A stretch of DNA of 43,657 nt. Origin: an uncultured Alphaproteobacteria bacterium (GTDB lineage: Bacteria > Pseudomonadota > Alphaproteobacteria > HIMB59 > GCA-002718135). Shown piece by piece: positions 5,042 to 29,360 of the stretch. Numbering within the stretch: the first letter of the stretch is position 1; each line of letters begins with the position of its first letter. A program made the position numbers and the translations under genes. Below the pieces are notes generated by a model that worked only from the letters and a program-made list of their open reading frames with translations, made no database searches and had not been told where the DNA came from. Location: positions 1 through 43,657 of the forward strand of contig CACIRR010000005.1 in NCBI GenBank assembly GCA_902589095.1, written 5' to 3'.

Positions 5042-5046
5042 AATAA

Positions 5047-5052: not shown

Positions 5053-5057
5053 AATTG

Positions 5058-5085: not shown

Positions 5086-5115
5086 AGTTAAATTAATATT
5101 GTAACTTAATCAAGC

Positions 5116-9332: not shown

Positions 9333-9418
9333 ATTGTCCTTTTCCATATATAATTTAACTTCTAATAGTGAAAAAGATGACAATCCACTATATATATTTG
9401 TATATGTTGCAACAAAAC

Positions 9419-11077: not shown

Positions 11078-11080
11078 TTT

Positions 11081-13539: not shown

Positions 13540-16489
13540 ACATTCTTTTACCTTCTGGATCGATCATATGAGGTGAAACAACTTTGATTTCCATTTGTTT
13601 GTTTCTTACAGGATCAGCCCCTACTAATGTTATATCTTTCCACTTCGCAAGACCGCCTTTAACAAATCCAATACCAATCCAATGACCTAATTCTGGAGAG
13701 TGAGTAACAGATGTAATACGACCCACACCCTGCCCTTTAATATTATTTTTTTCACAAACAATTGTTCCTGCATTGAACGTTTCATTTTCATTAATAGGAA
13801 AAAAACCGACTAACACTTCTCTATCATCTGCGCTTAATACACCTCTTTTACGCATTGCACTTCCAATGTAGGATTTTTTTGTTGATGCCATTTTCCCTAA
13901 CCCAGCATCATCAATCGTTACTCTTCCATCAAGCTCAGCGCCAGTTACATGTCCTTTTTCAACCCTTAAAGCTCCCAAAGCCTCAAGACCATACAAGCAA
14001 CCATCATACTTTTGCGCACTTTCCCATAACATATCCATCATTCCATGCGCATAATCAGATTCAATATACATCTCGTAGGCTAACTCTCCTGAAAAACTTA
14101 TTCTCACAACTCTACATGGTGTGCCATCTTTGAGTTTAGTTTGAAGTACGCCCATGAAAGGTAAATTATCGTTTGTAATTTCAGTTGGATCAAACACACA
14201 TTCATTCAACACATCTCGCGATTTAGGACCAGCAATTGCTGCACCTGCCCATTGTTCAGAAACACTTGTTACATTCACTTTAAGATCTGTCCATCTTGTT
14301 TGCAGTAGTTCTTCTAACCACGACATCACTTTTGCTGCAGCTGCAGTTGAGGTTGTCATAAAATATTCATTTTCACCAAGTCTCCATGATGTACCATCAT
14401 CCATCACAATACCATCATCGCGTAGCATGATTCCATAACGAGCTTTCCCAATTGGAAGTTTAGCAAATGGATTTGTGTAAATACGATTTACGAGTTCAGT
14501 TGCATCAGGTCCCTGAATTGCAATTTTACCAAGCGATGTTACGTCACATATTCCAACTGTTTTTCTCACAATGGTTGCTTCTCGAATATATGAGTCACTC
14601 AATGTTTCATTTTTTTTAGGATAGTACCATGGTCTTTGGTATAGACCGACTTCAATCATTTTTGCTCCATGATCAATATTCCATTGATGCATGGGTGTTA
14701 CTCTTAAAGGTCTGAAATGTTTTCCAACATTCCTTCCTGTTAAAGCACCTATAGGGACAGGTGTATAAGGTGGTCGAAAGACTGTTGTTCCAACTTCAGG
14801 TATAGTTTTATCGAGTTGTTCGGCCATTAAAGATAATCCAATGATATTGCCCATTTTGCCCTGATCATTGGCCATACCTAAAGTGGTATATCTTTTTAAA
14901 TGCTCCACGGAGACAAAACCCTCTCTGTGCGCTAGTCTAACATCCTCAGTAGTAACATCATGTTGAAAGTCGACAAAACTTTTGGAGGGAAATTTATTTG
15001 ATTTAACTTCGAATAATGGCTCTATCGCATTTGACCAACCGCCTACAGGTGGAAAAGAAATTTCTTTTTTGTGGATACCAAAAGTATTCATTGCTTCATT
15101 CGCACCTGCAAAGCCCGACTCTACGCAATCCTTTTCATTCCAAATTCCTTTTGCTGATCCTACGACAGAAATATTTTCTTTAATTTCTCCTGGAATGAAA
15201 CATTGGTTTTCGTTATTCCACACCGGTTTAATGCCACGGTGTGAAACAAGATTAACAATTGGGGACCAACCACCAGACATTAAAACTTGGTCACAAATAA
15301 TTGTATTTTTATGTGATAGATCTGAGGTTTTGTAAACATCAATACCATCAATTTTTTTTCTACCATTAATACTAAACGGCAGAGTATTTAAATGAAGATC
15401 AATCTCTTGTGGTAAATCATGATTAACATTTTCTCTTGAATCTAAAATTGTAACTTTAGAACCTGCCTCATGCAACTCTATAGCTGTTTGATAGACAGAA
15501 TCATTATTTGTTGAGATCACAATGTTATTTCCAGTTAAAACACCGTATCTGTTTAAATAATGTTTAGACGCGTTGACAGTCATTGCTCCAGGTAAATCAT
15601 TGTTATTAAATGCAATATGTCTTTCAAGAGCGCCACTTGCCACAATGATATGTTTTGCTCTAATTGTCCAAAAACGTTGTCGAGGTAAATTACTATGTGG
15701 TGTTGAGAGATGATCAGTAACTCTTTCTAAAGCGCCTACTACAGTATTATCATAGATGCCAAATGCTGTTGTTCTGGACATCACCCTAATGCCACTATTT
15801 TTAAGTTGATCATTTAAAAGATGAGCATCAAAATCTTTTTGGGATAAACTATTTCCTCCTAATAATGAATCCTGCTCAATTAAAATAACATCTAATTTAT
15901 TGTTGGCAATTTCTTGAGCGGCAGCAATACCTGCAGGACCGGACCCTATTACAAGTACATCACAAAAATCATTCGCATGTTCATAGCTATCTGGATCCGG
16001 TTCTCTAGACGCTTTACCCATGCCAGCTGCTTTTCGAATAATTTTTTCAAAAACCATCCAAATACCAGTACCTTTACCCCATTCAAATGGAGGTAGACCC
16101 ATAAATGTTTTATAATAAAAACCTGCAGCAAAAAAACGGCTTAAATAATTATTAACACCACCAAAATCAAAATTAACACTCGGAAATGCATTTTGACCTG
16201 AAGCATTTAATCCAGAATACAGTTCTTGTGTAGTTGCACGCACATTGGGATCTCTTCTACTGCCAGAGCCAACAGTTACTAAAGCACCTGATTCTTCAAC
16301 ACCGCAAGACATTACTCCTCGTGGACGATGATATTTAAAACTTCTACCAACTATTCTAACATCATTTGCTAATAGCGCAGAGGCTAGTGAGTCACCTTCA
16401 TATCCAAAATATTCTTTATTATCCCAAGTAAAGCCCAATACTTTGTCTCTATTAATTTTACCGTAGTGTTCTTTTCTTTGCGATGTCAT
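13532..16489 (-). CDS. soxA: Sarcosine oxidase alpha subunit
   Basis: A 985-aa alpha subunit of tetrameric sarcosine oxidase, full length for the family. The N-terminal ferredoxin-like region includes GRSFKYHRPRGVMSCGVEE (about residues 48-66); an NAD(+)-binding Rossmann motif VIGSGPAGIAAAQ lies at about 180-192; and the C-terminal third (from about 600, HFRPLRVTPMHQWNIDHGA onward) is the GcvT-like tetrahydrofolate-binding domain that captures the methyl carbon as methylene-THF. Sarcosine plus O2 plus THF gives glycine, H2O2 and methylene-THF. The start overlaps the soxD stop by 4 nt (ATGA). Related alpha subunits can serve dimethylglycine-type or other N-methyl amino acids, so the physiological substrate could differ. 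Confidence 0.95.
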   Translation of the reverse strand: MTSQRKEHYGKINRDKVLGFTWDNKEYFGYEGDSLASALLANDVRIVGRSFKYHRPRGVMSCGVEESGALVTVGSGSRRDPNVRATTQELYSGLNASGQNAFPSVNFDFGGVNNYLSRFFAAGFYYKTFMGLPPFEWGKGTGIWMVFEKIIRKAAGMGKASREPDPDSYEHANDFCDVLVIGSGPAGIAAAQEIANNKLDVILIEQDSLLGGNSLSQKDFDAHLLNDQLKNSGIRVMSRTTAFGIYDNTVVGALERVTDHLSTPHSNLPRQRFWTIRAKHIIVASGALERHIAFNNNDLPGAMTVNASKHYLNRYGVLTGNNIVISTNNDSVYQTAIELHEAGSKVTILDSRENVNHDLPQEIDLHLNTLPFSINGRKKIDGIDVYKTSDLSHKNTIICDQVLMSGGWSPIVNLVSHRGIKPVWNNENQCFIPGEIKENISVVGSAKGIWNEKDCVESGFAGANEAMNTFGIHKKEISFPPVGGWSNAIEPLFEVKSNKFPSKSFVDFQHDVTTEDVRLAHREGFVSVEHLKRYTTLGMANDQGKMGNIIGLSLMAEQLDKTIPEVGTTVFRPPYTPVPIGALTGRNVGKHFRPLRVTPMHQWNIDHGAKMIEVGLYQRPWYYPKKNETLSDSYIREATIVRKTVGICDVTSLGKIAIQGPDATELVNRIYTNPFAKLPIGKARYGIMLRDDGIVMDDGTSWRLGENEYFMTTSTAAAAKVMSWLEELLQTRWTDLKVNVTSVSEQWAGAAIAGPKSRDVLNECVFDPTEITNDNLPFMGVLQTKLKDGTPCRVVRISFSGELAYEMYIESDYAHGMMDMLWESAQKYDGCLYGLEALGALRVEKGHVTGAELDGRVTIDDAGLGKMASTKKSYIGSAMRKRGVLSADDREVLVGFFPINENETFNAGTIVCEKNNIKGQGVGRITSVTHSPELGHWIGIGFVKGGLAKWKDITLVGADPVRNKQMEIKVVSPHMIDPEGKRMYA

Positions 16490-16770
16490 GATTTGTTTTT
16501 TGTAATGTTTTCAATTTGTGGATGACATGCTTTTACACTTTTGATTTCATGCGTAATTGTAGATCTTTCTACCTCTAACCATAATCTACAACCATTTGTA
16601 TGATGCCAAGTTTCTTTTTGCATACCTCTTATATTTTCACGAAAGAAAATTGCCTTCGTCCATTCTGATTCAGGTGCATCAAGTGCTGGATACTTAATAG
16701 AGGCATCACCACCATAAGTGAACTCACTATGATCTCTCTCCCCGCAATATGGACATTTAATTCTAATCAT
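16486..16770 (-). CDS. soxD: Sarcosine oxidase delta subunit
   Basis: A 94-aa delta subunit beginning MIRIKCPYCGERDHSEFTYG. The Cys-x2-Cys pair (residues 6 and 9), the His in ERDHSEF and the later WHHTNGCRLWLEVER segment form the structural zinc site known in this family. A longer frame reaches back to 16833, but the extra 21 residues overlap soxB and resemble nothing in the family, and the ATG at 16770 starts 1 nt after the soxB stop, so I use it. It overlaps soxA by 4 nt. Length is as expected (about 90-100 aa). Confidence 0.93.
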   Translation of the reverse strand: MIRIKCPYCGERDHSEFTYGGDASIKYPALDAPESEWTKAIFFRENIRGMQKETWHHTNGCRLWLEVERSTITHEIKSVKACHPQIENITKNKS

Positions 16771-16771
16771 A

Positions 16772-18037
16772 TCAACCGTGCAGCTTTGGATCTGGACCAG
16801 CACCACGCTCGTCAATATTAATGCCTTTTTCAAATCTCTCTAAATTATGATTTTGAACATGTTTATGAGGTTGTTCATTAGCTATTAAATCAGCAAAATA
16901 CCAACCTGAGGCGGGACTTGCTTTAAAGCCTCCATAATTCCATCCAGCATTAAGATATAAATTTGATAATGGCGTTTTGCAGATGAAAAAAGAGCCATCC
17001 ATAGACATATCCATCACCCCAGCCCAGTGACGTAAAAGACGTATTCTACCTAAACAAGGCATAATAGCCATAGCGGCCTCCGCAGAGTCCTGAACGATTG
17101 GAAGATTTCCTCTTTGGGCATATGACTTATACCAATCAAGATCTCCGCCAAATACCATGCTACCTTTGTCGGATTGAGAAATATAAAAATGCGCTCCTCC
17201 CACTCCGTATACTACTACATGATCTAATAAAGGCTTAATAGACTCGGTAACAAAAGCTTGAAGTTTATGAGACTCAATTGGTAAGTTACCAAGACCTGCC
17301 ATTTGCCACAAAACAGATGTATGACCTGCAACTGCAAATCCTACTTTTTTAGCCTTAATGGTTCCTCTTGATGTATCCAGGCTTTCAATATTATTTTGGG
17401 ATCTCTTAACACCTGTTACTTCACAATTTTGTAAAATATCAACTCCTAAGCTATCGGCAGCTCGAGCATAACCCCACACTGCTGAGTCATGTCTAGCGTT
17501 ACCAGCTCTTCTTTGAACTGCAGCGCCCATTATTGGAAATCTTGCATCTTCATAGTTTAAATGAGGAATATTTTTTTTAAGAGTTCCTAAGTCCCATAAT
17601 TCAGCATCCGTTCCATGCAAACGCATAATGTTGTATCTTCTTGCAGCTCCATCTCTTGCCCCTGGGCTGTGAAAAAGGGAGACATGCGCTCTTTGACTAA
17701 ACATTACATTATAATTTAAGTCGTGACTTAAATTTTCCCATAGCTTTAATGAATGCTCGTAAAATTCATGATTACCTGGCATCATATAATTCGAACGAAC
17801 TATTGTTGTGTTTCGTCCTGCATTTCCACCACCTATCCATCCTTTTTCAAGAACTGCTATATTTTTTTTATTATGATTTTTTGCTAAATAGTAAGCAGTG
17901 GCTAAGCCATGAAGGCCACCTCCCACTATGATGATATCATATTCTTTTTTTGGTTCAGGATCACGCCATTGTCTGTCCCAGCTTTTTTGGCCAGTAAAAC
18001 CATTCTTAAATACATTCCATGCATTAAAACGTGTCAT
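16772..18037 (-). CDS. soxB: Sarcosine oxidase beta subunit
   Basis: A 421-aa beta subunit carrying the catalytic flavins. The FAD-binding Rossmann motif VGGGLHGLATAYYL is at about residues 38-51, followed by the GGGNAGRNTTIVRSNY segment typical of SoxB. GNARHDSAVWGYARAA contains His183, which by the family motif is the residue that covalently binds FMN. The C-terminal GAGMNYGGF-like segment appears as LNAGWNYGGFKASPASG. It is the first gene of the soxBDAG-doeA operon, reading away from the 152-nt divergent region shared with the DpkA-like gene. Confidence 0.95.
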   Translation of the reverse strand: MTRFNAWNVFKNGFTGQKSWDRQWRDPEPKKEYDIIIVGGGLHGLATAYYLAKNHNKKNIAVLEKGWIGGGNAGRNTTIVRSNYMMPGNHEFYEHSLKLWENLSHDLNYNVMFSQRAHVSLFHSPGARDGAARRYNIMRLHGTDAELWDLGTLKKNIPHLNYEDARFPIMGAAVQRRAGNARHDSAVWGYARAADSLGVDILQNCEVTGVKRSQNNIESLDTSRGTIKAKKVGFAVAGHTSVLWQMAGLGNLPIESHKLQAFVTESIKPLLDHVVVYGVGGAHFYISQSDKGSMVFGGDLDWYKSYAQRGNLPIVQDSAEAAMAIMPCLGRIRLLRHWAGVMDMSMDGSFFICKTPLSNLYLNAGWNYGGFKASPASGWYFADLIANEQPHKHVQNHNLERFEKGINIDERGAGPDPKLHG

Positions 18038-18189: not shown

Positions 18190-19191
18190 ATGACAACTAC
18201 CGATTTATCTCTGGAAGAGATCTATAACTTAGCCCTAAAAACACTCAAATATAATGGTTGTGATGATCTTAACGCAGAAGCGGTTGCGCATACTGTCACA
18301 AATGCTGAAAGAGACGGAAGCGTATCTCACGGGCTTTTTAGAATCCCAGGATATATTGCTGCTTTAAAAAGTAAAAAAGTAAAAGGTAATGCAAGACCAA
18401 CAAATAATTATTTAACTCAAAATGCAATAAGAGTGGAAGGTGATTATGGATTTGCACCAACTGCTATAGGAGTAGGTATTCCAGCTTTGGTAGAGGTTAC
18501 AAAAAAACATGGCGTAGGTGTTTTAACTATTACTAATACACATCACTTTGCTGCTTTATGGCATGAGACTGAGGCTTTAGCAGAAAATGAATTAATTGGC
18601 ATTGCATGTACTGCTTATAAACCAAGCGTTGCACCTGCTGGTGCAAAAAAACCATTATTTGGAACTAATCCAATTTCTTTTGCTTGGCCAAGAAAAAATA
18701 ACACTCCTGTAGTATATGATATGGCAACTTCAACGATGGCAATGGGGGAAGTACAAGTTGCGGCGCGAGATGGTCATAAAGTGCCATTTGGTACTGGATT
18801 AAATAAAGATGGTGAAAAAACAGATAATCCATCTGAAATAGCTAATGGTGGGGTTTTACTAACTTTTGGTGACTATAAAGGTTCTGCCATTGCCATGATG
18901 ATAGAATTATTAGCCGCTGGATTAGTTGGTGACTTATTTAGTTTTGAAGCAAAAGAAGCGGATAATAATGATGGTGGACCTGCACGAGGTGGTGAATTTA
19001 TAATGGCACTCTCTCCAGAATTAATCGCAGGTAATAATTGGAATGATCATGCAGAAAAGTTTTTTGAACAAATGAAATCACTTGAAGGTGTAAGACTTCC
19101 TGGAGAGAGAAGACATCAAAATCGTTTAGACACAGGTTCAAGAAGTATTAATACAGAGTTAGTAAATAAAATTATTTCATTATCAGAATAA
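18190..19191 (+). CDS. Delta1-piperideine-2-carboxylate / Delta1-pyrroline-2-carboxylate reductase (DpkA-like)
   Basis: A 333-aa member of the malate/L-lactate (Ldh2) dehydrogenase family that reduces cyclic imino acids to L-proline or L-pipecolate with NADPH. Family landmarks are ERDGSVSHGLFRIPGYI (residues 35-51), NTHHFAALWHETE, KKPLFGTNPISFAWP, the DMATSTMAMGEVQ segment, GDYKGSAIAMMIELLA and the C-terminal RLPGERRH. These match DpkA-type enzymes better than malate or ureidoglycolate dehydrogenases. It is convergent (5-nt gap) with a proline racemase superfamily gene; the two could convert trans-3-hydroxy-L-proline to the cyclic imine and then to proline. A GGAATATT precedes the ATG. Reductase class is confident, exact substrate is inferred. 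Confidence 0.78.
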   Translation: MTTTDLSLEEIYNLALKTLKYNGCDDLNAEAVAHTVTNAERDGSVSHGLFRIPGYIAALKSKKVKGNARPTNNYLTQNAIRVEGDYGFAPTAIGVGIPALVEVTKKHGVGVLTITNTHHFAALWHETEALAENELIGIACTAYKPSVAPAGAKKPLFGTNPISFAWPRKNNTPVVYDMATSTMAMGEVQVAARDGHKVPFGTGLNKDGEKTDNPSEIANGGVLLTFGDYKGSAIAMMIELLAAGLVGDLFSFEAKEADNNDGGPARGGEFIMALSPELIAGNNWNDHAEKFFEQMKSLEGVRLPGERRHQNRLDTGSRSINTELVNKIISLSE

Positions 19192-19196: not shown

Positions 19197-20219
19197 TTAA
19201 AGATCAGGCCAGGTATCATTAAGCCTATACCCTTCAGGAAAAGGGTCATCTTTTGAAACATAAAGTTCTTGTTTACCTGTGATGAAAGCTGAGCCTTTAA
19301 TTAAGGGTTTGATCATTTTTTTCCCATTACAGTTAATTTCTTCTTTTATTTTTGTTTCAAATGTAGATCCAATTATTGATCTAGAAATAAATGTTTCATT
19401 TATATCAATCTCTTTTTTTTCTCGCATCAGTGCAAGTCTAGCTGAGGTACCAGTCCCACACGGTGATCTATCCAATTTACCAGGTCTAATACTGACTGTA
19501 TTCCATCCTTCTTTTTGATTTAAATCATTAATTTTGACAGGCTCGATAAATTGACAAAATGAAATATAATCTAACGATGGAAGTGTTGGATGAGAAAAAC
19601 CAAATTCACTATTTGCAATTTTGATAATTTCCTTAGATATTGCAACAAATTTTTTTGCATTCTTCGGTTCAATTGTTAAGTTAAAATCTTTTGCATTACA
19701 AATTACAAATGTATCTCCACCAAATACAGTACTGACAATTATATCTCCAAAATGTTGTGTCTTAAGTTTAACATCTAATAAATCAACAAAGGATGGAAGA
19801 TTTTCTATTTCTACCGATGTTACATGATTATTTTTTACTTCAGCTTTTATTGAAATTAAACCTCCCGGTGCTTCAAGAATAAATTCACTTAAAGGTTCGT
19901 TAGATTTAATTATATTTTTTTCTAATAAGACGGTCGCTACACAAATACTATTTGACCCACTCATTGGGGGATTGTCTTCTGGCTCCATAATGATGAACCC
20001 TGCAGATGCTTTATTATCTTTTGGAGGAACGATTAAATTACAATGTTTAAAAACCCCGCCTCTTGGCTCATTTAATAAAAAGTTTCTTAATTTTTTATTT
20101 TCAAATAAATACTGAGATTGTTTAAATATTGTCTCTCCCTCTAATTTGATATCTCCTGAAACAATAACATCTCCTATTTCACCGCAACAATGCGTATTAT
20201 AAACTTCAATGATTGACAT
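19197..20219 (-). CDS. Proline racemase superfamily: hydroxyproline epimerase/dehydratase-like, Ser/Cys active site
   Basis: A 340-aa ProR-fold protein. The first catalytic position is Ser87 in PPMSGSNSICVATVLLE, where racemases and 4-hydroxyproline epimerases have Cys, and the second is Cys254 in DRSPCGTGTSARLALM. The family contains Cys/Cys enzymes (racemase, 4-Hyp epimerase), Cys/Thr enzymes (trans-3-Hyp dehydratase) and a Ser/Cys group for which epimerase and dehydratase activities have been described, as I recall. The start codon overlaps the stop of the upstream M24 gene (TAATG), making it the last gene of the eutABC-containing operon. The nearby DpkA-like reductase fits removal of a Delta1-pyrroline-2-carboxylate product. 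Racemisation of proline itself is unlikely because of the serine. Confidence 0.8.
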   Translation of the reverse strand: MSIIEVYNTHCCGEIGDVIVSGDIKLEGETIFKQSQYLFENKKLRNFLLNEPRGGVFKHCNLIVPPKDNKASAGFIIMEPEDNPPMSGSNSICVATVLLEKNIIKSNEPLSEFILEAPGGLISIKAEVKNNHVTSVEIENLPSFVDLLDVKLKTQHFGDIIVSTVFGGDTFVICNAKDFNLTIEPKNAKKFVAISKEIIKIANSEFGFSHPTLPSLDYISFCQFIEPVKINDLNQKEGWNTVSIRPGKLDRSPCGTGTSARLALMREKKEIDINETFISRSIIGSTFETKIKEEINCNGKKMIKPLIKGSAFITGKQELYVSKDDPFPEGYRLNDTWPDL

Positions 20220-21367
20220 TAAATAATAACATCCTCTATTTTTTTTGAAAAATTTGTAATTTGATCATAGCCATTTTCAGTAATGATGAAACTATCACCA
20301 ACTTGAGCACGAAATGTTTCTTCATTTGCAGACCCATCAACAGCAAAAACCATGCCTGGTTGTAATATAGTTGTATTTCCTGATACTAATTGCGGCTCTT
20401 CTAACATGCTAAAACCAGTGGCTCTTCCACATCTAAAAGTTGGATAGGGATAGCCTTCACTTTGAATTGCATCTGCGTATGCTGCATGCACATCTTCGGC
20501 TTTAACACCTGGCCCTAGAACACTTAATGCTGCTTTTTGTGATTGAACTGCTGTTTCATATGTTTTTATTTGAGACTTATCTCTAATTTCCTTAACCCAA
20601 AAAGTTCTATCAAAACCAAGTTTAAATTTATGAAAATTGGTCATCCCACAAAAACATAAAAAAACAGGATCTCCCTCTTTGATTAATTTTGTGGAAGCTC
20701 GGTGATGAGTTTTAGGCAAATCTCTTCCAGAAGCCATAATTTGTAAAAAATGAATCAAAGGAGACATATTGCTATCATCAAATTCGTTTTTAAGAATTTC
20801 TGCAGCCTTTCTTGTGCCTGCTTGTGATGTAGCTAATGCCACCTCATACTCAGGAACATTATCTCCAATTGCCTCTTTTCCAGCATTCATCATTGCTTCA
20901 GCAACTTTCCCAGCTGATTTAGCAATCTTAAGCTCTTCTTCAGTTTTAATCATTCTGATAGAGTCAAACGTTGGCGTAATGTTGCTGAGAAATTTTTCTT
21001 CAGTTAAGGATGATATATAATTTAAAACTAAAGTACTGATCTTAAATTTTTCTATTCCAATATTTAAATTTTTTTTTATGTATTTTGGTAAATGCTCTCT
21101 CCATTCATCACCAACACCATCATTCCATGTAATGATTTTGTCAACTGGACAATTTTTACTAACTAGATGGACGTCAATTAAGGGTGTGATCAATACAGAA
21201 TCAGAGTCTTTAGGAACTAATAAAAGAGTTGGTCGCCCAAACGACATGTGTAAATAATCAAAATAACCTGCAAAATAATAAAGTGAGTCATCATCAGTAA
21301 TTATGGCTATATCAATATTATTTTTTTGAAGAGACGTTCTTAAATTTTCAAGATTTTTTTTAAACAT
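20219..21367 (-). CDS. Creatinase-like M24 family hydrolase
   Basis: A 382-aa pita-bread-fold protein of the M24 family (creatinase, Xaa-Pro peptidase, ectoine hydrolase). Similarity to creatinase is visible in MSFGRPTLLLVP, VPEYEVALATSQAGTRKA, and MASGRDLPKTHHRAS, the last aligning with the region that carries the creatinase catalytic histidine. The end (PGMVFAVDGSANEETFRAQVGDSFIITENG) is family-like, but the usual metal ligands of true aminopeptidases are not apparent. It would hydrolyse a C-N bond in a small guanidino, amide or ring compound. It sits between the M20 gene and the ProR-like gene with a stop/start overlap, in the operon led by an amidinotransferase. Peptidase, creatinase-like or EutD-like function cannot be separated by sequence alone. 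Confidence 0.68.
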   Translation of the reverse strand: MFKKNLENLRTSLQKNNIDIAIITDDDSLYYFAGYFDYLHMSFGRPTLLLVPKDSDSVLITPLIDVHLVSKNCPVDKIITWNDGVGDEWREHLPKYIKKNLNIGIEKFKISTLVLNYISSLTEEKFLSNITPTFDSIRMIKTEEELKIAKSAGKVAEAMMNAGKEAIGDNVPEYEVALATSQAGTRKAAEILKNEFDDSNMSPLIHFLQIMASGRDLPKTHHRASTKLIKEGDPVFLCFCGMTNFHKFKLGFDRTFWVKEIRDKSQIKTYETAVQSQKAALSVLGPGVKAEDVHAAYADAIQSEGYPYPTFRCGRATGFSMLEEPQLVSGNTTILQPGMVFAVDGSANEETFRAQVGDSFIITENGYDQITNFSKKIEDVII

Positions 21368-21386
21368 CTCGAATTTTCATTAAAAA

Positions 21387-22544
21387 TTATTTTTGCAATT
21401 GCTGTTCCGCTAGTTCAACCCAATATGAAGAACCTTGTACAAGCAACTCATCATTGAAATCATAATCTGCAGAATGTAGGGGTCTTCCATGTGAACCTTT
21501 AACTCCATTGCCCATTAAGACGAAACAACCAGGAGTGTTTTCTGACATAATAGAAAAATCTTCTGAGAATGGTCTTGGATCAATATCACCATCACATTTA
21601 TCAGGTCCTAACAATGTAATTGCAGCTTTAGTGGCCGCGTCTGCTTGTTTAGGCTGATTAAAAGTCATCGGACAAGTTGTTTCATATTTTACTTCATAGG
21701 AAATTCCATAAGACTCACAAATACCTTTTACAAGTTGGCGCATATTTTGCTCAATCATGGTGTTGGTGTTCTGAGAAAACGCCCTTGCATCTCCTTTAAT
21801 TAATCCATTCCCAGGCAATACATTTTTTTTTCCATCTGTGATAAATTCTGTAACAGAGACTACCCCTGCTTCTACAGGATTAAGTTTTCGTGAAACTATT
21901 GTCTGTAAGGCAACTATAATCTGACTACCAATTGTAATAGTATCTTTTGTCATATGTGGTAAAGCTGCGTGCCCTCCCTTCCCACTAATAGAAATTTCAA
22001 ATAGATTTTCACTAGTTGTAATGCCACCTTTTCTTGTTCCAAATGTCCCAATTTCCATACCAGGTATATTATGCATACCATACACCTCATCAATTGAGAA
22101 TTTGGTGTATAATCCTTCTTCAATCATTGTCTTTGCACCAAAGCAATTTTCTTCATCAGGTTGAAAAATAAAATACACAGTCCCATCAAAATTACCATGT
22201 TCCGCTAAATATTTTGCGGCTCCAAGTAACATGGTGGTGTGCCCATCATGACCACAAGCATGCATTCTGTTTTCAATTTTAGATTTATACGAAAAATTAT
22301 TTATCTCATTTATAGGAAGAGCATCCATATCAGCTCTTATACCTATACTTTTATTGCTATTTCCTTTTTTTAATACGCCAACGACACCAGTTTTAGCGAT
22401 ACCTTGATGAACCTCTATTCCAAATTCTCTCATTAAGTTAGCTACTTTGTTTGAGGCATATTCCTCTTCAAAACTTATTTGTGGATTCATGTGTAAATCA
22501 TGCCTCCATCCAGTTAATTGATTATGTAGTGCTTTAGTTTTCAT
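21387..22544 (-). CDS. M20 family amidohydrolase (HipO/AbgB-like)
   Basis: A 385-aa metal-dependent aminoacylase-type enzyme. The metal-binding segment MHACGHDGHTTMLLGAA, the catalytic QPDEENCFGAK (Glu-Glu-like acidic pair replaced by DEE) and the later RPFSEDFSIMSENTPGCFVLMGNG are clear, with a dimerisation domain in between (GGHAALPHMTKD). Such enzymes cleave N-acyl amino acids (hippurate, N-acetyl amino acids, IAA conjugates). In this operon it could replace the EutE/DoeB deacetylase, which belongs to a different fold and is not seen, by removing an acyl group from an intermediate; that is inference. It starts 3 nt upstream-adjacent to the PLP-enzyme gene and is followed 19 nt later by the M24 gene. 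Confidence 0.88.
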   Translation of the reverse strand: MKTKALHNQLTGWRHDLHMNPQISFEEEYASNKVANLMREFGIEVHQGIAKTGVVGVLKKGNSNKSIGIRADMDALPINEINNFSYKSKIENRMHACGHDGHTTMLLGAAKYLAEHGNFDGTVYFIFQPDEENCFGAKTMIEEGLYTKFSIDEVYGMHNIPGMEIGTFGTRKGGITTSENLFEISISGKGGHAALPHMTKDTITIGSQIIVALQTIVSRKLNPVEAGVVSVTEFITDGKKNVLPGNGLIKGDARAFSQNTNTMIEQNMRQLVKGICESYGISYEVKYETTCPMTFNQPKQADAATKAAITLLGPDKCDGDIDPRPFSEDFSIMSENTPGCFVLMGNGVKGSHGRPLHSADYDFNDELLVQGSSYWVELAEQQLQK

Positions 22545-22547
22545 TGT

Positions 22548-23990
22548 CTAAAAAGAATTAAACTCTTTAATTTTTTCATCAAGTGAAATCATATCTTTGT
22601 AGTGCTTATCCCAAAAAGATTGATTTCTTCTGTTTTCAAATTCTTCCAAACTAATACCTTGTTGTTCTACCCATGTATAATAACCCAAATTAAATATTCT
22701 CTCTTTGTCAATTTGACTCAATTCTTGAGTGTGGTCAACAGTAATTGCTTCAAAATTTTTTGCAAAAATTTCTGCACACGTTATTTGATCGTATATTTTG
22801 CTAAAATGTTTTTTTGTTTTTGCTAATTCAGTTTCGTATAAATCAGCGCCGTCAGTAGCCACAGTTATAATGGCGTCATCTTTTGTTAACTTCATTTTTT
22901 TAGCTAATTTGATTGAAGCGATAATATTTGCTATTGAAGAAAAACCGAATTCAGGAAGTCTGTCGACAAATTCACCATCAAATCCTTTTCTTTTTTTCAA
23001 ATAATTTTTACCCTCACTAGTATTGAACAATAAATTGAGATTATTTGTAGCTTCATCTGATACTCCAACAACATAATCTGAATTCATAACATTATGTATC
23101 AAAGGAACATGTTTATCGCCTATTCCCTGGATATTATGTTCACCATATCCATTATAAAGAAGAGTTGGACATTCAACCGCCTCAACAACTGCAATTTTGG
23201 CATTAAGACTTTCCTTTAAATAATCACCTGCCGCAAGAGTGCCACTTGATCCTGAGGCAGAAACGTAAAGTCTTGCAGTTAAATTAGAGTCACCTTTAAC
23301 TTTAAGAAAAGATTTTTCAAATGAAGACCCAGTAATTGATCTGTGTATTGCATAATTATAATATTCATTAAATTGATTAATAATATCGTTGTTTTTATCT
23401 TTTTCTAACTCATTACATGCATCGTATATTTCTTTCACATTACTTTCAGTGCCTTTAGTTTTGATGATATCCTTTTTATCTTCAACCCATTTTTCCAACC
23501 AATTAAATCTCTCCTTGCTCATGCCTTCTGGTAAAATAGCTACACTTTTTAATCCTAATATTTTCGAAATTGCTACTCCACCACGGCAATAATTTCCAGT
23601 TGAAGGCCAAACTGCTTTATGCTTGGAATAGTCAAATGTGCCATTTAGTATCCTTGGAAGTAGGCATCCGTATGCTGCTAAAACTTTATGAGCAGTAATA
23701 AGCGGAAAGTAACGTCCTAGATTAACAATAATTTTAGCTTCAATACCAGTAAACTCATCTGGCAACACTATATGTTCTGGAACGTCTAAAAAGTTAGTAT
23801 GATCACTTTTATTAAACCAATGAACTCTAAATAAATTCGCCGGATCCATAGCGTCTTTATCAGTCTTAAAAACTTTATTCTTAATGTCTGTGTCAATTAA
23901 ATGTGGGTTTTGTAATTCACTGATAGTTGGAAGTAGAATACCCTTCTGTTTAAAATAATTAGCTGTTTTTTCTATTACTAATGAATTCAT
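22548..23990 (-). CDS. PLP-dependent fold-type II enzyme (cysteine synthase / amino acid lyase family)
   Basis: A 480-aa protein of the tryptophan synthase beta superfamily, much longer than cysteine synthase or serine dehydratase (about 310-340 aa). Evidence is the SASGSSGTLAAGDYLKE segment (a phosphate-binding glycine/serine loop), WPSTGNYCRGGVAISKILGLKSVAILPEGMSKERFNWLEKW (the STGNxG-type motif followed by the typical IxxPE), and FPLITAHKVLAAYG around residues 94-107, in which a lysine may bind PLP. The reaction could be beta-elimination, beta-replacement or dehydration of a hydroxylated amino acid, consistent with hydroxyectoine or hydroxyproline chemistry. It lies between eutC and the M20 gene in the same operon. 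I cannot assign a substrate. Confidence 0.72.
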   Translation of the reverse strand: MNSLVIEKTANYFKQKGILLPTISELQNPHLIDTDIKNKVFKTDKDAMDPANLFRVHWFNKSDHTNFLDVPEHIVLPDEFTGIEAKIIVNLGRYFPLITAHKVLAAYGCLLPRILNGTFDYSKHKAVWPSTGNYCRGGVAISKILGLKSVAILPEGMSKERFNWLEKWVEDKKDIIKTKGTESNVKEIYDACNELEKDKNNDIINQFNEYYNYAIHRSITGSSFEKSFLKVKGDSNLTARLYVSASGSSGTLAAGDYLKESLNAKIAVVEAVECPTLLYNGYGEHNIQGIGDKHVPLIHNVMNSDYVVGVSDEATNNLNLLFNTSEGKNYLKKRKGFDGEFVDRLPEFGFSSIANIIASIKLAKKMKLTKDDAIITVATDGADLYETELAKTKKHFSKIYDQITCAEIFAKNFEAITVDHTQELSQIDKERIFNLGYYTWVEQQGISLEEFENRRNQSFWDKHYKDMISLDEKIKEFNSF

Positions 23991-24017
23991 ATCCTGATAA
24001 CTAGATACGCCCTACAC

Positions 24018-25001
24018 CTAATCTACATTCTTGCCTAGTTTTTTATTTAGAGCAATTTCATAAGCATAACGGGCAATTGCTGTATCTTGAACTCCAGTAC
24101 CAGTTAAGTCAGCCACCGTAATATCATCATTATTTTTTCTACCAAGCTCTGGATTGATAATAATTTTTCCCAGATCATTATAAATCTTATCATTTGGAAT
24201 TAATTTTTTTTTAAGTGCATGATTTAATTCACCCAAAATCATTGTCTGATTCTGATTATCAGGAACATAAACATCACACTTTTGAATTATATTTGGATCT
24301 AACTCATTCTTTTGTTCTGCATCAGATCCCATTGCAGTAATATGAATACCTTTGGGTAATGAAGAATATTCAATAAGAGGTTTTTTACTTGGAGTTGTTG
24401 TAATTAATATATCAACTTCTTTTACTAAATCTTCAGTATTGTCATGAACATTAAATTTAAAATTATATTTTTTACTTACATTGTCAATATATGCATGAGC
24501 TTTACTTTTATCTCTTGCCCATACATTTACATTTTTTATATCTCTAACAAGAGTAAGAGACTCAAGTTGCAACTCAGCCTGAATTCCTGCTCCAATAATT
24601 GCTACTGATGATGAAGTAGGTTTTGATAAATATTTTGAGGCTATTGCACCTGCTATAGCCGTCCTGACATCAGTTAAATAGCCTTTATCTAATAATACAG
24701 ATTTGATAACTCCTGTTTTTGAGTCCAAAAGTATCATCAGTCCATTACTCGATGGTAATCCAAGTTTAGAATTATTAAAGAAACCTGAAGCAACTTTAAC
24801 AGCAAAACTATCTAAACCTTCTATGTAAGCCGCCTTTACATCTGACTCCCCGTGATATTTTTCAATATCAACCCTCAGAATTGGAGGCATAACTGTTTTA
24901 CCTAAAGATAAACTCTTAAAAGCATCTTCAATTATGGGAATAAGATCTTCATTAAACTTAACACAATTTTTTATTTCTGTTGAATCGAGTATTAATGTCA
25001 T
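24018..25001 (-). CDS. eutC: EutC-like ornithine cyclodeaminase family protein
   Basis: A 327-aa member of the ornithine cyclodeaminase/mu-crystallin family. Features are MPPILRVDIEKYHGESDVKAAYIEG, SGFFNNSKLGLPSSNGLMILLD, LLDKGYLTDVRTAIAGAIASKYL and the NAD(H)-binding motif AIIGAGIQAELQLESLTLV around residues 133-151. These match the EutC protein of (hydroxy)ectoine clusters more closely than ornithine cyclodeaminase. Family members reduce cyclic imines or deaminate diamino acids. It overlaps eutB by 4 nt and follows the conserved order eutA-eutB-eutC. The precise step of EutC is not settled in the literature I know, so the reaction is left open. Confidence 0.82.
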   Translation of the reverse strand: MTLILDSTEIKNCVKFNEDLIPIIEDAFKSLSLGKTVMPPILRVDIEKYHGESDVKAAYIEGLDSFAVKVASGFFNNSKLGLPSSNGLMILLDSKTGVIKSVLLDKGYLTDVRTAIAGAIASKYLSKPTSSSVAIIGAGIQAELQLESLTLVRDIKNVNVWARDKSKAHAYIDNVSKKYNFKFNVHDNTEDLVKEVDILITTTPSKKPLIEYSSLPKGIHITAMGSDAEQKNELDPNIIQKCDVYVPDNQNQTMILGELNHALKKKLIPNDKIYNDLGKIIINPELGRKNNDDITVADLTGTGVQDTAIARYAYEIALNKKLGKNVD

Positions 25002-25948
25002 GAAATTATTTTATTAAATAGTTTAGCATCAATATTGCCACCACATATTAGGGAAATGATATTTTTTCCTAATTTTTTCGACATATTATCTTTGACCACC
25101 ATTACTCCAGTTGCAGCAGCTCCTTCAGTCACGAGTTTATGTTCAACAAAATTAAATTTTATACCTTCAGCAATTTTATCTTCATTGACTAAAACAAAAT
25201 CGTCAATGGTTTCCTGAGCAATTTTAAATGTATATTTATTATCAAGCCCTATACTTCCCCCTAAACAATCAGCAAGAGTCTCAAGTTCTTCCACATCTGT
25301 TGGTTTCCCTTTTTTTAAACTTTCATACATCGATGGTCCTTTTTCCATAGATACTGCTATTATTTGTACTGATGGTTTTTGTAATTTTATCGCAAGTGCT
25401 ATACCACCAATAAGACCTCCACCCGAGGTTGGAATGATAACAGTATCAACATCAGGAAAATCCTCAAGCATTTCTAATCCAACGGTGCCTTGCCCAGCAA
25501 TAACTTCTTCATCATCAAACGGGTGAACAAGAGTTATATTTTTTTCTTTTGCCAGTTTTTTTGCATGCAAGTCAGCTTCATCGCTATTATTTCCAATTAT
25601 TTCAACTTTTGCACCCAAGGCTTCAATTGCTTCTTTTCTATACTGGGGTACCATGGAAGACATAAAGATTGTCGATTTGATACCCAATACTCTTGCTGCA
25701 TGCGCAACTCCTTTACCATGATTGCCTGTCGATACAGCTATCACCCCTTTTTGCTTTTGTTCATTATCTAATGATAATAATTTATTAGTAGCTCCACGCA
25801 ACTTAAAGGAATTAGTAATTTGAAGGGACTCTAGTTTTAATTTTACAATTCTATTTTGAGATAAACGATTAGATAATATTAAAGGTGTCCTATTAATATA
25901 AGGTGCTATACTCGTATGAGCTTTCTTAATTTTATCTAAACTAATCAA
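24998..25948 (-). CDS. eutB: EutB-like threonine dehydratase family enzyme
   Basis: A 316-aa PLP fold-type II enzyme. Lys49 in the NSFKLRGATNK motif should bind PLP; VSTGNHGKGVAHAARVLGI and the glycine loop IPTSGGGLIGGIAL bind cofactor and substrate. The segments HPFDDEEVIAGQGTVGLEMLED and TLADCLGGSIGLDNKYTF match hydroxyectoine utilisation dehydratase EutB rather than plain IlvA, and the regulatory ACT domain is missing, as expected. The frame has a stop three codons upstream, so the start must be TTG at 25948 (a poor ribosome-binding site precedes it). It would dehydrate or deaminate a beta-hydroxy amino acid intermediate. It lies between eutA (38 nt upstream) and eutC (4-nt overlap). Confidence 0.82.
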   Translation of the reverse strand: MISLDKIKKAHTSIAPYINRTPLILSNRLSQNRIVKLKLESLQITNSFKLRGATNKLLSLDNEQKQKGVIAVSTGNHGKGVAHAARVLGIKSTIFMSSMVPQYRKEAIEALGAKVEIIGNNSDEADLHAKKLAKEKNITLVHPFDDEEVIAGQGTVGLEMLEDFPDVDTVIIPTSGGGLIGGIALAIKLQKPSVQIIAVSMEKGPSMYESLKKGKPTDVEELETLADCLGGSIGLDNKYTFKIAQETIDDFVLVNEDKIAEGIKFNFVEHKLVTEGAAATGVMVVKDNMSKKLGKNIISLICGGNIDAKLFNKIIS

Positions 25949-25986
25949 ACCGATTTATTTCTAGTTGTTGTAAAAAATTGCATATT

Positions 25987-26739
25987 TTAACTTTCAAATA
26001 ATTTTCCATAACCCTTGATTTTCGTATCAATGCCAATAGATCTTAAACAGTCCCAAATAATAGCCTGATTGCTTGAGATGATTGTCGTATCTTGGAACTT
26101 CTCAATTTTATCTAACACATCTACAATTTTTAGAGCCGTACAGGAAACAAACAAACCGTCGACATTGGCTAAATCTATCTTTGCTATTTCTTTTTGAAGG
26201 CTCTCAAGACTTACTTGAGCTATGTCAGAGTCATATTCCAAATTAAATGAGCTAAACGAATCAATAGTTAAATTGTTTTCATTTAAATAATTAAAGACCG
26301 TTACATTCACATCTTTTGGATACGGCGTTAGAACCGCAATTTTTTTTATACCTAAATGTTTAAAAGCCTTTATAGCAGCTGTTATTGGTGTTGTGACCTT
26401 TGCATTTGGTTTTGAATTGTTTACCTCTTCCTTAATTTTCTCCGCACCAATAGCAATCGTTCCAGAGGTACAACCATAGGCAATAATATCTACATCTTCA
26501 GAAGGTAAAATTTGTGCTGACACATCACTAATATGAAGAGCCATTTTTAAATAATTTTCTTGATTTAAAGGATTTTCAAAAGGAATACGATTTACAAATA
26601 TATCTACCGGAAGTTGATGACAAATATTTCTATAATCTTGCTCAATCGTAAAATCTGTAGATAAAGCAATGAGACCAATTCTGGGATTAATTGTTTTAAT
26701 GATATCAGGTCTTAAATCATTTTGAAAAAAGGTGGTCAT
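25987..26739 (-). CDS. eutA: EutA-like Asp/Glu racemase superfamily protein
   Basis: A 250-aa protein of the aspartate/glutamate racemase, maleate isomerase and arylmalonate decarboxylase superfamily. Two catalytic cysteines are visible: Cys90 in IAYGCTSGTIAIG and Cys200 in LFVSCTALKIVD. The start IGLIALSTDFTIEQDYRN and the segment VTTPITAAIKAFKHLGIKKIAVLTPYP match EutA of ectoine clusters, in which eutA, eutB and eutC stand in this order. EutA is thought to isomerise or racemise an intermediate of hydroxyectoine breakdown. Its ATG overlaps the stop of the amidinotransferase (ATGA at 26736-26739), so both are translated together. Confidence 0.8.
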   Translation of the reverse strand: MTTFFQNDLRPDIIKTINPRIGLIALSTDFTIEQDYRNICHQLPVDIFVNRIPFENPLNQENYLKMALHISDVSAQILPSEDVDIIAYGCTSGTIAIGAEKIKEEVNNSKPNAKVTTPITAAIKAFKHLGIKKIAVLTPYPKDVNVTVFNYLNENNLTIDSFSSFNLEYDSDIAQVSLESLQKEIAKIDLANVDGLFVSCTALKIVDVLDKIEKFQDTTIISSNQAIIWDCLRSIGIDTKIKGYGKLFES

Positions 26740-27842
26740 GATTGATTGGGAAAATAGTCTTCACATCCGCCTTCTCTATAGACATCTGTTGTAGCACAGT
26801 GAAGACTTCCACCAAAAGCATAGGCATCTCTAAAAGGGACTGGGATAACATCCATGCCAAATCCTTCCATTTGCTTAATCATTTTTTCTTCTGAAGCTTC
26901 TACGCATATTGTGGTTGGATTTAAAATTAATACATTCATAGATAGCCAAATAGAAGAATAGCACATCGGTGGTGGAGCATTATGTACTGAAGGAGCAGCT
27001 TCGTGAATTTCCCATTTGTTATCATCAAAAATTTTTCTTTGTTCATTAGAAATTTTTCTATTGGGATTAATAATAATTACTCCTGGTTTGATAGGGGTGA
27101 AACAAGCATCGATGTGAGTAGGAATTAAATCACCTGGAAGGTTGATTTGGTGTACGCGGTGATTTGGAAAATGTCTGCGTAACCAATCTAACCCTTTTAA
27201 ATTTGATGTAAAATTATTGTGGTAAAATAAATCTTTTCCAAAACGCAACACTTCTGCTGCATCAAAAAGAGGTTCTTGTTCGGTCAAAATCATATCACCA
27301 TCTTCAATCTTTTTGTATCTTTCTTCCTCAGTTATGCCCTCCGGTAAATAATTTGATTTATAAGTTGATGCTGTTAAACGAGGTTTTGGTGATGACTCCC
27401 AACGCATATTTGGATCATCATTATAATATTGTTCAAGAAGCGGTCTGTATGCAAGATATTCAAACCATCTACAGCGATAAGACATTGGTGCCTCCAGCAT
27501 TTCATTCCCTACCGTTAAGATAACATCTCGAGGTGGCATCGATCCAAATTGACCATCATTTATCCAATCAGGTGTAGCAATTGCTTTTGTAAAATCTATT
27601 GGAGTTGGTCTATCTACTCTGACTCCATTTGATTCTAAAATTTTTATAAAATTATTTAATTGAATATTTGCTTTATCAATCGACTCTTGACTTCTCGGTC
27701 CGTGTGAACCTACCATGCCGCTATCTTTGCTTATTTTAGGTTCTAATGCCGGTTCCATTGGAGGGACATTTGAATTTTCAACAGTACCTACAATGACATG
27801 TTTAAGTGGATCCCATTCATTCCAAGAGTTAACTATTGTCAT
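26736..27842 (-). CDS. Glycine amidinotransferase-like enzyme (arginine:glycine amidinotransferase family)
   Basis: A 368-aa amidinotransferase. Characteristic parts are the start NEWDPLKHVIVG, the DWLRRHFPNHRVHQINLPGD region, the LIPTHIDACFTPIKPGVIIINPNR segment with the catalytic histidine and aspartate, SSIWLSMNVLILNP, and the C-terminal GGSLHCATTDVYREG with nucleophile Cys349. These correspond to the AGAT (GATM) family that moves the amidino group from arginine to glycine, giving guanidinoacetate and ornithine; bacterial relatives use other acceptors. It is the first gene of the eutABC-containing operon, coupled to eutA by a 4-nt overlap. Whether it makes a guanidino compound or runs in reverse is unknown; this is an unusual partner for eutABC. 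Confidence 0.83.
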   Translation of the reverse strand: MTIVNSWNEWDPLKHVIVGTVENSNVPPMEPALEPKISKDSGMVGSHGPRSQESIDKANIQLNNFIKILESNGVRVDRPTPIDFTKAIATPDWINDGQFGSMPPRDVILTVGNEMLEAPMSYRCRWFEYLAYRPLLEQYYNDDPNMRWESSPKPRLTASTYKSNYLPEGITEEERYKKIEDGDMILTEQEPLFDAAEVLRFGKDLFYHNNFTSNLKGLDWLRRHFPNHRVHQINLPGDLIPTHIDACFTPIKPGVIIINPNRKISNEQRKIFDDNKWEIHEAAPSVHNAPPPMCYSSIWLSMNVLILNPTTICVEASEEKMIKQMEGFGMDVIPVPFRDAYAFGGSLHCATTDVYREGGCEDYFPNQS

Positions 27843-27908: not shown

Positions 27909-29360
27909 ATGGAACTTAAAAATAATACACTTTTCAAAGAAAATTGTCTAATCGGTGGTAAATGGATTGAAAGCAATTCTGGTGAAAAAATTGATGTAGA
28001 CAATCCCGCAAATGGTGAAATTATTGGCAAAGTTCCTAAATGCTCAACATCTGAAACTACTAAGGCAATTGATGAGGCTCAAAAAGCTTTTCCTGCATGG
28101 AGAGATAAAACTGCAAAGGAAAGATCTATAATATTACAAAAATGGGCAAGATTAATTGAAGACAATGTTGATGATTTAGCAAAAATTATGACGGTCGAGC
28201 AAGGAAAACCTTTGGCTGAAGCAAAAGGTGAAATTTTAATGGGAGTGACATATATTGATTTTTACGCAGAAGAGGGAAAAAGAGTTTACGGTGATATCAT
28301 TCCCGATCCAATGCCTGATAGAAGAATAGTTGTTATTAAACAACCTGTTGGTGTTGTTGGAGCAATTACTCCTTGGAACTTCCCTAGTACAATGATTACC
28401 AGAAAATGCGCTCCTGCACTTGCAGTAGGTTGTACTGTTGTAATAAAACCTGCTAGTCAAACTCCTTATTCTGCACTTGCTCTTGGAGTTTTGGCAAAAG
28501 AGGCCGGCTTTCCTGATGGTGTTATAAATATTATTACAGGATCAGCAGGTGCTATTGGTAAAGAATTAACAGAAAACCCCATCGTAAGAAAAATATCATT
28601 TACAGGCTCTACGGAGGTTGGAAAAATTCTTTTACAACAAAGTGCTTCTACAGTGAAAAAAGTATCAATGGAATTGGGGGGTCATGCACCATTTGTAGTA
28701 TTTGATGATGCAAACATTGAAGAAGCAGTTACAGGAGCTATGCAAAGTAAGTTTAGAAATTCAGGTCAGACCTGTATCTGTGCCAACAGAATTTTTGTTC
28801 ATGAAAAAGTTTATGATGATTTTCTAAATAAATTTATTCAGGAAGTTAATAAAATCAAAGTTGGAAATGGTTTGGATGAAGGTATTGTCTCAGGACCACT
28901 CATTGATCAACCATCTCTTATTAAAGTACATGATCAAGTAAAGGATGCAGTTAATCAAGGAGCAAAAATTGCGGTGGGGGGAGATGTGCATCCACTAGGA
29001 GGTAATTTTTATCAACCAACAATTCTCTCAGATGTTACCACAAAAGCAAAAATTACATACGAAGAAACTTTTGGTCCTGTTGCTCCTTTGTACAAGTTTA
29101 AATCAGATGAAGAAGTAATTAAGCTTGCGAATGACACGCCTTATGGTCTAGCTTCATATTTTTACTCAAGAGATATAGGTAGAATATGGAGAGTAGCAGA
29201 AGCGCTTGAATATGGAATGGTTGGCGTCAATACAGGATTAACAACTAAAGCAGAAATACCCTTTGGGGGAGTTAAAGAATCAGGTCTAGGAAGAGAAGGT
29301 TCTCGCTATGGTCTTGATGATTATTTAAATATAAAATATATTTCAATGGCCGGTATTTAA
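27909..29360 (+). CDS. gabD: Succinate-semialdehyde dehydrogenase-like aldehyde dehydrogenase (GabD type)
   Basis: A 483-aa aldehyde dehydrogenase of the GabD group. Visible are the TPWNFPSTMITRKCAPALAVG segment, FTGSTEVGKILL, the catalytic glutamate in MELGGHAPF (Glu255) and the catalytic cysteine in NSGQTCICANRI (Cys289; the extra Cys291 at the CxC motif is typical of redox-sensitive GabD). PFGGVKESGLGREG closes the protein. The start has a GAGG ribosome-binding site 8 nt upstream. It diverges from the amidinotransferase-eutABC operon across 66 nt. In ectoine clusters a semialdehyde dehydrogenase makes the final acid; succinate semialdehyde or aspartate semialdehyde may be the substrate. 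GabD naming is by similarity. Confidence 0.83.
   Translation: MELKNNTLFKENCLIGGKWIESNSGEKIDVDNPANGEIIGKVPKCSTSETTKAIDEAQKAFPAWRDKTAKERSIILQKWARLIEDNVDDLAKIMTVEQGKPLAEAKGEILMGVTYIDFYAEEGKRVYGDIIPDPMPDRRIVVIKQPVGVVGAITPWNFPSTMITRKCAPALAVGCTVVIKPASQTPYSALALGVLAKEAGFPDGVINIITGSAGAIGKELTENPIVRKISFTGSTEVGKILLQQSASTVKKVSMELGGHAPFVVFDDANIEEAVTGAMQSKFRNSGQTCICANRIFVHEKVYDDFLNKFIQEVNKIKVGNGLDEGIVSGPLIDQPSLIKVHDQVKDAVNQGAKIAVGGDVHPLGGNFYQPTILSDVTTKAKITYEETFGPVAPLYKFKSDEEVIKLANDTPYGLASYFYSRDIGRIWRVAEALEYGMVGVNTGLTTKAEIPFGGVKESGLGREGSRYGLDDYLNIKYISMAGI

Follow-up and report, generated by a model that had tools for sequence, protein, structure and literature searches.

The DNA analysed here, referred to as the window, is a stretch of 43,657 nucleotides (contig CACIRR010000005.1, assembly GCA_902589095.1) from an uncultured alphaproteobacterium of the HIMB59 lineage, and its central feature is an operon of eight leftward genes in which the gene for a GATM-type amidinotransferase precedes homologues of the hydroxyectoine catabolic genes eutA, eutB and eutC. 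These are followed by genes for a pyridoxal-phosphate (PLP) enzyme of 480 amino acids, an M20 amidohydrolase, a creatinase-like M24 protein and a member of the proline-racemase (ProR) family. In the order of transcription, the operon is composed as follows:

26736-27842, minus strand: GATM/AGAT-type amidinotransferase, 368 amino acids, first gene of the operon (human AGAT 253 bits, SxtG 228 bits)
25987-26739, minus strand: EutA-family isomerase/racemase (TIGR02990, 213 bits; cut-off 318)
24998-25948, minus strand: EutB, a PLP-dependent dehydratase (390 and 358 bits in two EutB models; cut-off 413)
24018-25001, minus strand: EutC, a reductase of the ornithine cyclodeaminase family (PRK08291, 447 bits, cut-off 408; TIGR02992, 414 of 472 bits)
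22548-23990, minus strand: 480-residue fold-type-II PLP enzyme of the cysteine-synthase/PALP superfamily, forming a subfamily of its own
21387-22544, minus strand: M20D amidohydrolase, candidate deacetylase replacing EutE (TIGR01891, 310 bits; cut-off 154)
20219-21367, minus strand: creatinase-like M24 protein with altered active-site positions (creatinase 1chm, 89 bits)
19197-20219, minus strand: proline-racemase-family protein, nearest to trans-3-hydroxy-L-proline dehydratase (432 bits, cut-off 550; 4k8l, 365 bits)

The junctions between these genes range from -4 to +38 nt. The amidinotransferase gene overlaps eutA by 4 nt (ATGA), eutA and eutB are 38 nt apart, and eutB overlaps eutC by 4 nt; gaps of 27, 3 and 19 nt separate eutC from the PLP gene, the latter from the M20 gene and the M20 gene from the M24 gene, which in turn overlaps the ProR-family gene by 1 nt. 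An earlier note on this DNA had described eight tightly packed leftward genes and the ATGA overlap, and both descriptions are accurate; the span that it gave, 20219-27842, encloses seven of them, while the eighth, the ProR-family gene, lies outside it.

When public genomes were scanned with the amidinotransferase as query, at least 585 relatives were obtained, and the best 80 of these were kept as loci; 37 of the 80, with 85-92% identity, make up the clade to which the window itself belongs (the own clade). Two further samples comprised 60 genomes of the family and 385 genomes from across the class. Within the family sample, the amidinotransferase gene is present in 54 of the 60 genomes, as is a gene for EutA, and the two are neighbours on the same strand in 53 of 54 genomes; in the sole remaining genome (G029), a contig end cuts the region at this very point. 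The order is found in the genera g1, g2, g3, g4 and g6 (the latter four represented by L153, L154 and L156-L158). Among the 37 own-clade loci, the succession from the amidinotransferase to EutA is seen in 34, those from EutA to EutB and from EutB to EutC in 30 each, EutC to the PLP enzyme in 25, PLP enzyme to M20 in 24, M20 to M24 in 19 and M24 to ProR in 16, losses that are partly due to contig ends and partly to inserts and deletions. In the remaining 43 of the best 80 loci, tblastn (E 1e-10, 40% or more of the query) matched no EutA; in 38 of these, the recognised amidinotransferase gene was flanked on either side by 1 kb or more. Likewise, in the six genomes of the class-wide sample that lie outside the family and encode an amidinotransferase of 61-63% identity, EutA stands beside none of these genes (five judged by neighbourhood, G439 by coordinates). 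The earlier note had held that occurrence in one genome alone would defeat the idea of a single pathway, and had proposed looking for the gene order in marine alphaproteobacteria. The set recurs in many genomes of the family, and the adjacency in 53 of 54 genomes rejects a single-genome accident; conservation holds within the family but not for marine alphaproteobacteria in general, an operon of that breadth being rejected for the class-wide sample of 385 genomes.

The first enzyme of the operon finds no match in Pfam or NCBIfam, and the Pfam family PF02274 has zero matches in the entire genome. Its alignment with human AGAT nevertheless spans residues 4-364, and Asp254, His303 and Cys407 of AGAT, which we take to be the catalytic residues, are all matched in the window protein (positions here and below are counted on the AGAT alignment). 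It thus combines full-length homology with the catalytic Asp, His and Cys, the features by which we define an AGAT-type enzyme and which it shares with AGAT/GATM, SxtG, HsvA and StrB1. It differs from these in its genomic context, and the AGAT pocket residues Asn300, Met302 and Trp408 are replaced by Ile, Thr and Ala, so that its acceptor may or may not be glycine.

The slot upstream of eutA is occupied by two kinds of amidinotransferase. A divergent type is found in g1, g3 and g6, while g2 and g4 carry the ordinary type that other marine bacteria have, as judged from motifs (compared for g1, g2 and g4) and from a tree of 31 sequences in which the g2 gene falls among SAR11 sequences (support 100/99) and the g4 gene into the same wider clade (91/87). 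A single clade for all 11 operon amidinotransferases was rejected (p-AU 0.0023); the grouping had first been seen in the motifs and a first tree, before this test, and the 31 rows were hand-picked. EutB, EutC and SoxB of g2 and g4 group with the other family copies and exhibit no such split, in trees that comprised only the family rows and either three reference clusters or two plasmids and that could not reveal transfer from elsewhere. From these patterns, the slot amidinotransferase has probably been exchanged in place, at least once, and kept; alternatively, the two kinds may go back to two old copies of which one was lost, and an exchange may have run in either direction. If replacement in place did occur, the amidinotransferase would be a gene that the operon needs, and an ordinary amidinotransferase would suffice for the task of this slot. 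The view of the earlier note that the amidinotransferase truly belongs to the operon is hence strengthened, both by its EutA neighbour in 53 of 54 genomes and by a slot that has seemingly been refilled with a foreign gene.

When compared with reference hydroxyectoine clusters from three other alphaproteobacteria (L218-L220), the window proteins are 44-48% (EutB) and 47-49% (EutC) identical to their counterparts, and a EutD homologue encoded elsewhere in the window is 43-48% identical; no amidinotransferase was recognised within the 17-20 kb fetched for these clusters. EutA remains below its cut-off, which is not decisive because the EutA protein of L220 itself scores only 220 of 318 bits. Its motifs YGCTSG and SCTALK, both conserved in all 36 full-length family copies examined, carry two cysteines that are presumably those expected of a racemase mechanism. 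EutB attains its best scores of all models in the two EutB models, the next non-Eut model reaching 310 bits; the L220 protein scores 488 and 482 bits in the same two models. EutC exceeds the PRK08291 cut-off in 52 of the 60 family genomes. A second EutA-family gene (189 bits; L152, G000:C2:40134-40835) is located in the same genome on a contig other than that of the operon, and second copies are likewise present in G035, G036 and G043. Two genomes that each consist of one contig of 1.2-1.3 Mb (G355 and G265; loci L159 and L160) have a EutA gene clustered with a EutD homologue and a Pot-type transporter, and no EutB or EutC was recognised beside that cluster.

The earlier note had reported eutE/doeB as absent, with an M20 enzyme possibly in its place, and the family bears this out: none of the 60 genomes contains a EutE above the cut-off, and the ten operon-region proteins scanned include no EutE/DoeB match. 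Some match to the EutE model occurs in 9 of the 60 genomes, the best in G023 (220 of 403 bits), and the genome of the window yields a partial one of 93 bits. The M20 enzyme scores 311 bits in both the DoeB2 model (cut-off 550) and the CpsA model (cut-off 500), so that the profiles do not resolve its substrate. The M24 protein agrees with creatinase in the SFGRP motif and in the His of GAHNP. In contrast, Asp replaces the Glu of both ALERT and SMEP, and Arg replaces the His of GHS; we take these to be the metal-ligand positions of creatinase and M24 enzymes. All eight aligned family copies have the identical changes, and the full SFGRP motif is kept in only two of the eight. With its active-site residues changed, the M24 protein is rejected as a true creatinase. 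AlphaFold2 models of the M24 and PLP enzymes have pLDDT values of 33 and 38, respectively. Orthologues of the PLP enzyme occur in 10 outside-family genomes of the 385 searched (50-58% identity) and on two plasmids (48-51%), and no common neighbourhood was seen when judged by homologues of window genes and plasmid annotation only. The ProR-family protein falls below the curated cut-off for its nearest relative.

Further genes of note lie on both sides of the operon:

18190-19191, plus strand: Ldh_2-family dehydrogenase, convergent with the ProR-family gene (291 bits)
27909-29360, plus strand: succinate-semialdehyde dehydrogenase (SSADH), divergent from the amidinotransferase gene over 66 nt (TIGR01780, 714 bits; cut-off 646)
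11761-12933, minus strand: EutD/DoeA ectoine-hydrolase homologue (DoeA 6twk, 392 bits over the full length; TIGR02993, 477 bits, cut-off 613)
12976-18037, minus strand: sarcosine-oxidase-like set (gamma-like 12976-13539, alpha 13532-16489, beta 16772-18037)
1638-7432, minus strand: Pot-type ABC transporter with an FAD oxidoreductase (binding protein against the PotD-like 8jv1, 239 bits)

The SSADH gene adjoins the amidinotransferase gene in 36 of the 37 own-clade loci, the exception (L032) beginning inside the latter, and is also present in g2, g4 and g6. The sarcosine-oxidase-like set comes after the M24 and ProR genes in relatives; its gamma-like gene lacks a Pfam match and was named from its position and a 37% match in Roseovarius. 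Genes for an M19 dipeptidase, a 569-residue protein without a Pfam match and a DUF3726 protein (window positions 8688-11758) are located close to the sarcosine-oxidase genes, as they are in relatives. The EutD homologue, about 7 kb from the operon, matches the DoeA protein of H. elongata; the L220 protein reaches 735 bits in TIGR02993. An EutD/DoeA homologue is present in 26 of the 60 family genomes.

In four of the 37 own-clade loci (L005, L007, L009, L010), EutC is followed by an insert with ehuA, ehuB, ehuC and ehuD and a gene for a BisC-family reductase; L005 stops before ehuD, and L007, L009 and L010 continue with the PLP gene after the insert. One sequence of each Ehu subunit (from L005 or L007) was scored, all four being above the curated cut-offs, and the EhuB of the insert matches that of S. 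meliloti with 271 bits. L002, L028 and L161 have a different insert with an Ehu-like transporter after EutA, and the EhuB of L002 is below the cut-off (158 of 191 bits). In G019, the genome of L161, EutB, EutC and the PLP, M20, M24 and ProR genes are found on another contig, with EutB as the last recognised gene near the contig end. In L018 and L026, a Pot-type transporter related to that of the window follows the M20 gene, and the M24 and ProR genes are missing. In L004 (7888-8966), truncated PLP and ProR genes abut each other and the M20 and M24 genes are gone, which is either a deletion within the operon or a fault in the assembly of this metagenome-assembled genome.

Outside the family, the M24 protein has relatives (E <= 1e-60) in 15 of the 385 genomes; four of them are 57-60% identical, and their genes adjoin EutA in G138 and G310 but not in G234 and G330. 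On plasmids of Roseovarius pelagicus (L204:1-18267) and Aminobacter SR38 (L205), an M24 orthologue (59%) overlaps a EutA-like gene near ehu and sarcosine-oxidase genes, the Roseovarius cluster also encoding a Rieske protein; this set probably represents an uncharacterised cluster for an N-methyl osmolyte. The Aminobacter plasmid further carries an M20 gene (51% to that of the window) next to a diaminopropionate ammonia-lyase gene. Four SAR11-type loci have a creatinase gene adjoining an amidinotransferase gene (L076:8760-11098, L077, L288:7375-9711 and L289:6808-9146), a pair that shares with the window the amidinotransferase family and an M24-fold partner. In these loci, however, the M24 protein is a true creatinase and there is no adjoining EutA gene; the L076 protein scores 539 bits against the P. 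putida creatinase with its motifs kept, and those of the other three loci are 80-88% identical to it. This pair suggests an exchange between creatine and guanidinoacetate. In a Pelagibacterales bin (L046:4980-7261), the amidinotransferase gene is followed by a EutD/DoeA homologue with 51% identity to that of the window, and this is a second link between amidinotransferase and EutD functions.

According to the accessible parts of PMC8739950 and PMC13188858, EutD opens ectoine and hydroxyectoine to acetylated forms of diaminobutyrate, EutE deacetylates these, and EutABC are needed for hydroxyectoine, their exact reactions still being called uncertain. The HIMB59 operon shares with the known clusters ehuABCD-eutABCDE and uehABC-eutABCDE-ssd-atf the eutABC order and homology, and it has a EutD homologue in the window and ehu genes in some relatives (with an Lrp-type regulator in L007). 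It departs from them in its leading amidinotransferase, in having an M20 enzyme for EutE, in its extra M24, PLP and ProR genes, in a EutD that lies outside the operon and is not universal, and in the absence of an identified aminotransferase. Putative ectoine clusters without eutE have been described from the Bacillota (pucR-eutBCD-atf, abgB-thrA-adh) and also from the Thermodesulfobacteriota in the accessible part of PMC13188858. Like the HIMB59 operon, those of the Bacillota have an M20-type amidohydrolase gene (abgB) and often two EutD homologues; unlike it, they have another gene order, and the word amidinotransferase is absent from the accessible text of that paper.

We tentatively read the operon as a variant, specific to HIMB59/AEGEAN-169, of the catabolic module for hydroxyectoine or a close analogue. 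For EutB and EutC, the hydroxyectoine models give the highest scores, and identity to the reference proteins is 44-49%; EutC passes a curated cut-off throughout most of the family; a EutD homologue lies in the window and ehu genes in four own-clade loci; and the Bacillota offer, in the accessible text of PMC13188858, a precedent both for an M20 enzyme replacing EutE and for a second EutD-like gene. The steady place of the amidinotransferase beside EutA, in a slot that holds two kinds of this enzyme, would make it part of the same module. In such a pathway, the substrate would be imported by an ehu-type or Pot-type transporter and its ring opened by the EutD/DoeA-like M24 enzyme or possibly, where EutD is absent, by the creatinase-like M24 protein. 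The M20 enzyme would then deacylate the product, and EutA, EutB and EutC would carry out the epimerisation, the dehydration and the imine reduction of a beta-hydroxy diamino acid. The AGAT-type enzyme may act at the amine end of the pathway by transferring an amidino group, with arginine as one partner and a small amine, glycine or the diaminobutyrate product as the other, and would thereby feed pathway nitrogen into the arginine/ornithine pool.

A number of observations weigh against this proposal. None of the known steps of hydroxyectoine breakdown requires an amidinotransferase. EutA, EutB and EutD are under their equivalog cut-offs, EutC is under one of two, and EutE above its cut-off is lacking from the whole family sample. 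A EutD homologue is missing (E <= 1e-60) in 27 of the 52 EutC-positive family genomes, including three of the nine that are at least 90% complete (G008, G010 and G012); the G010 operon is also devoid of the M24 gene (L018, continued in L279), the genome as a whole not having been searched for M24. The genome of the window, assembled to 1.13 Mb and 66.6% complete, has no EhuB over the cut-off and no clear aminotransferase, its nearest being 38% identical to the gene behind Ssd in L220, which was taken as Atf from its position. The divergent dehydrogenase resembles a genuine SSADH more than Ssd, since it exceeds the SSADH cut-off and the two reference genes in the Ssd position stay below it; in g3 (L156) it does not adjoin the amidinotransferase gene. 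Hence, the operon is filed as a variant of the hydroxyectoine kind and not as a proven member.

Several of these points would be accommodated if the substrate were a different, acyclic compound, namely an N-acylated or amidino-substituted beta-hydroxy (di)amino acid. EutABC would then perform the same chemistry, the M20 enzyme would deacylate, the amidinotransferase would remove or add an amidino group, and no ring hydrolase would be required. The many EutC-positive genomes that are devoid of a EutD homologue, the L018 and L026 operons that lack the M24 gene, the missing EutE, the divergence of the Eut proteins from the reference sets and the Aminobacter M20 gene beside a diaminopropionate ammonia-lyase gene all speak for such a substrate, but the ehu genes in four loci and the DoeA homologue in 26 of the 60 genomes point to ectoines, and we regard this alternative as rather unlikely. 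It is less probable still that two osmolyte pathways are co-expressed from one operon, with the amidinotransferase, the M24 protein and the sarcosine-oxidase set forming a guanidino/N-methyl module of a creatine- or guanidinoacetate-like kind and EutABC with the M20 enzyme acting separately. The four SAR11-type loci would fit this division, as would the M24 genes near sarcosine-oxidase genes here, in Roseovarius and in Aminobacter, and the accessible part of PMC11366302 proposes creatine use for the AEGEAN169 clade Ca. Indicimonas. However, the constant neighbour of the amidinotransferase is not M24 but EutA, with which it overlaps by 4 nt; the amidinotransferase is kept where M24 is gone (L018, L026), and M24 has lost the creatinase residues.

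An arginine route would convert arginine and glycine into ornithine and guanidinoacetate, with EutC acting as an ornithine cyclodeaminase that makes proline, the ProR and Ldh_2 proteins as proline-side enzymes and M24 releasing urea from guanidinoacetate. EutC does belong to the ornithine cyclodeaminase superfamily, the ProR protein is nearest to trans-3-hydroxyproline dehydratase, and the accessible part of PMC11366302 reports, on the basis of gene content, that Ca. Indicimonas uses urea. Nonetheless, EutC scores 447 bits in the EutC-type model PRK08291 against 125 in the ornithine cyclodeaminase model PRK07589, and EutA and EutB would have no place, so that we consider this route very improbable. 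To return to the variant hydroxyectoine module, transamidination might even be indispensable to the catabolism of osmolytes in HIMB59, running between arginine and the diamino acid from EutABC/M20 or its guanidino form. We view this extension as possible yet doubtful; if true, the breakdown of a beta-hydroxylated osmolyte would be tied directly to the arginine/ornithine pool, a type of pathway not found in the open-licence literature searched.

The earlier note had known of no described pathway with this gene set, and this holds for the open-licence literature searched. No paper was found there that pairs an amidinotransferase with SAR11 or that joins guanidinoacetate, amidinotransferase and marine bacteria; PMC10308909, on AEGEAN-169, contains no occurrence of creatin-, ectoine, amidinotransferase, hydroxyproline, sarcosine or guanidin-, and the only creatin- matches in PMC10734472 are the word "creating". 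The operon is less isolated from known biology than the note had it, given the EutD homologue 7 kb away that it missed, the ehu genes in relatives and the eutE-less Bacillota clusters with abgB. Its idea of a single pathway is a plausible hypothesis, and its guess of a guanidino- or acyl-modified hydroxy amino acid as substrate is a possible one. The amidinotransferase-led eutABC combination was found in none of the open-licence papers searched; the hydroxyectoine-type machinery as such is known.

HIMB59/AEGEAN-169, formerly subclade V of SAR11 (accessible parts of PMC10308909 and PMC11366302), is abundant in the oligotrophic surface ocean, with 3-6% relative abundance at 20 m in the South Pacific Gyre according to work cited in the accessible part of PMC11366302. 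Its diet is largely predicted only. The conserved operon of EutABC and an amidinotransferase provides a concrete and testable set of enzymes, both for the diet of these bacteria and for the reactions of EutABC.

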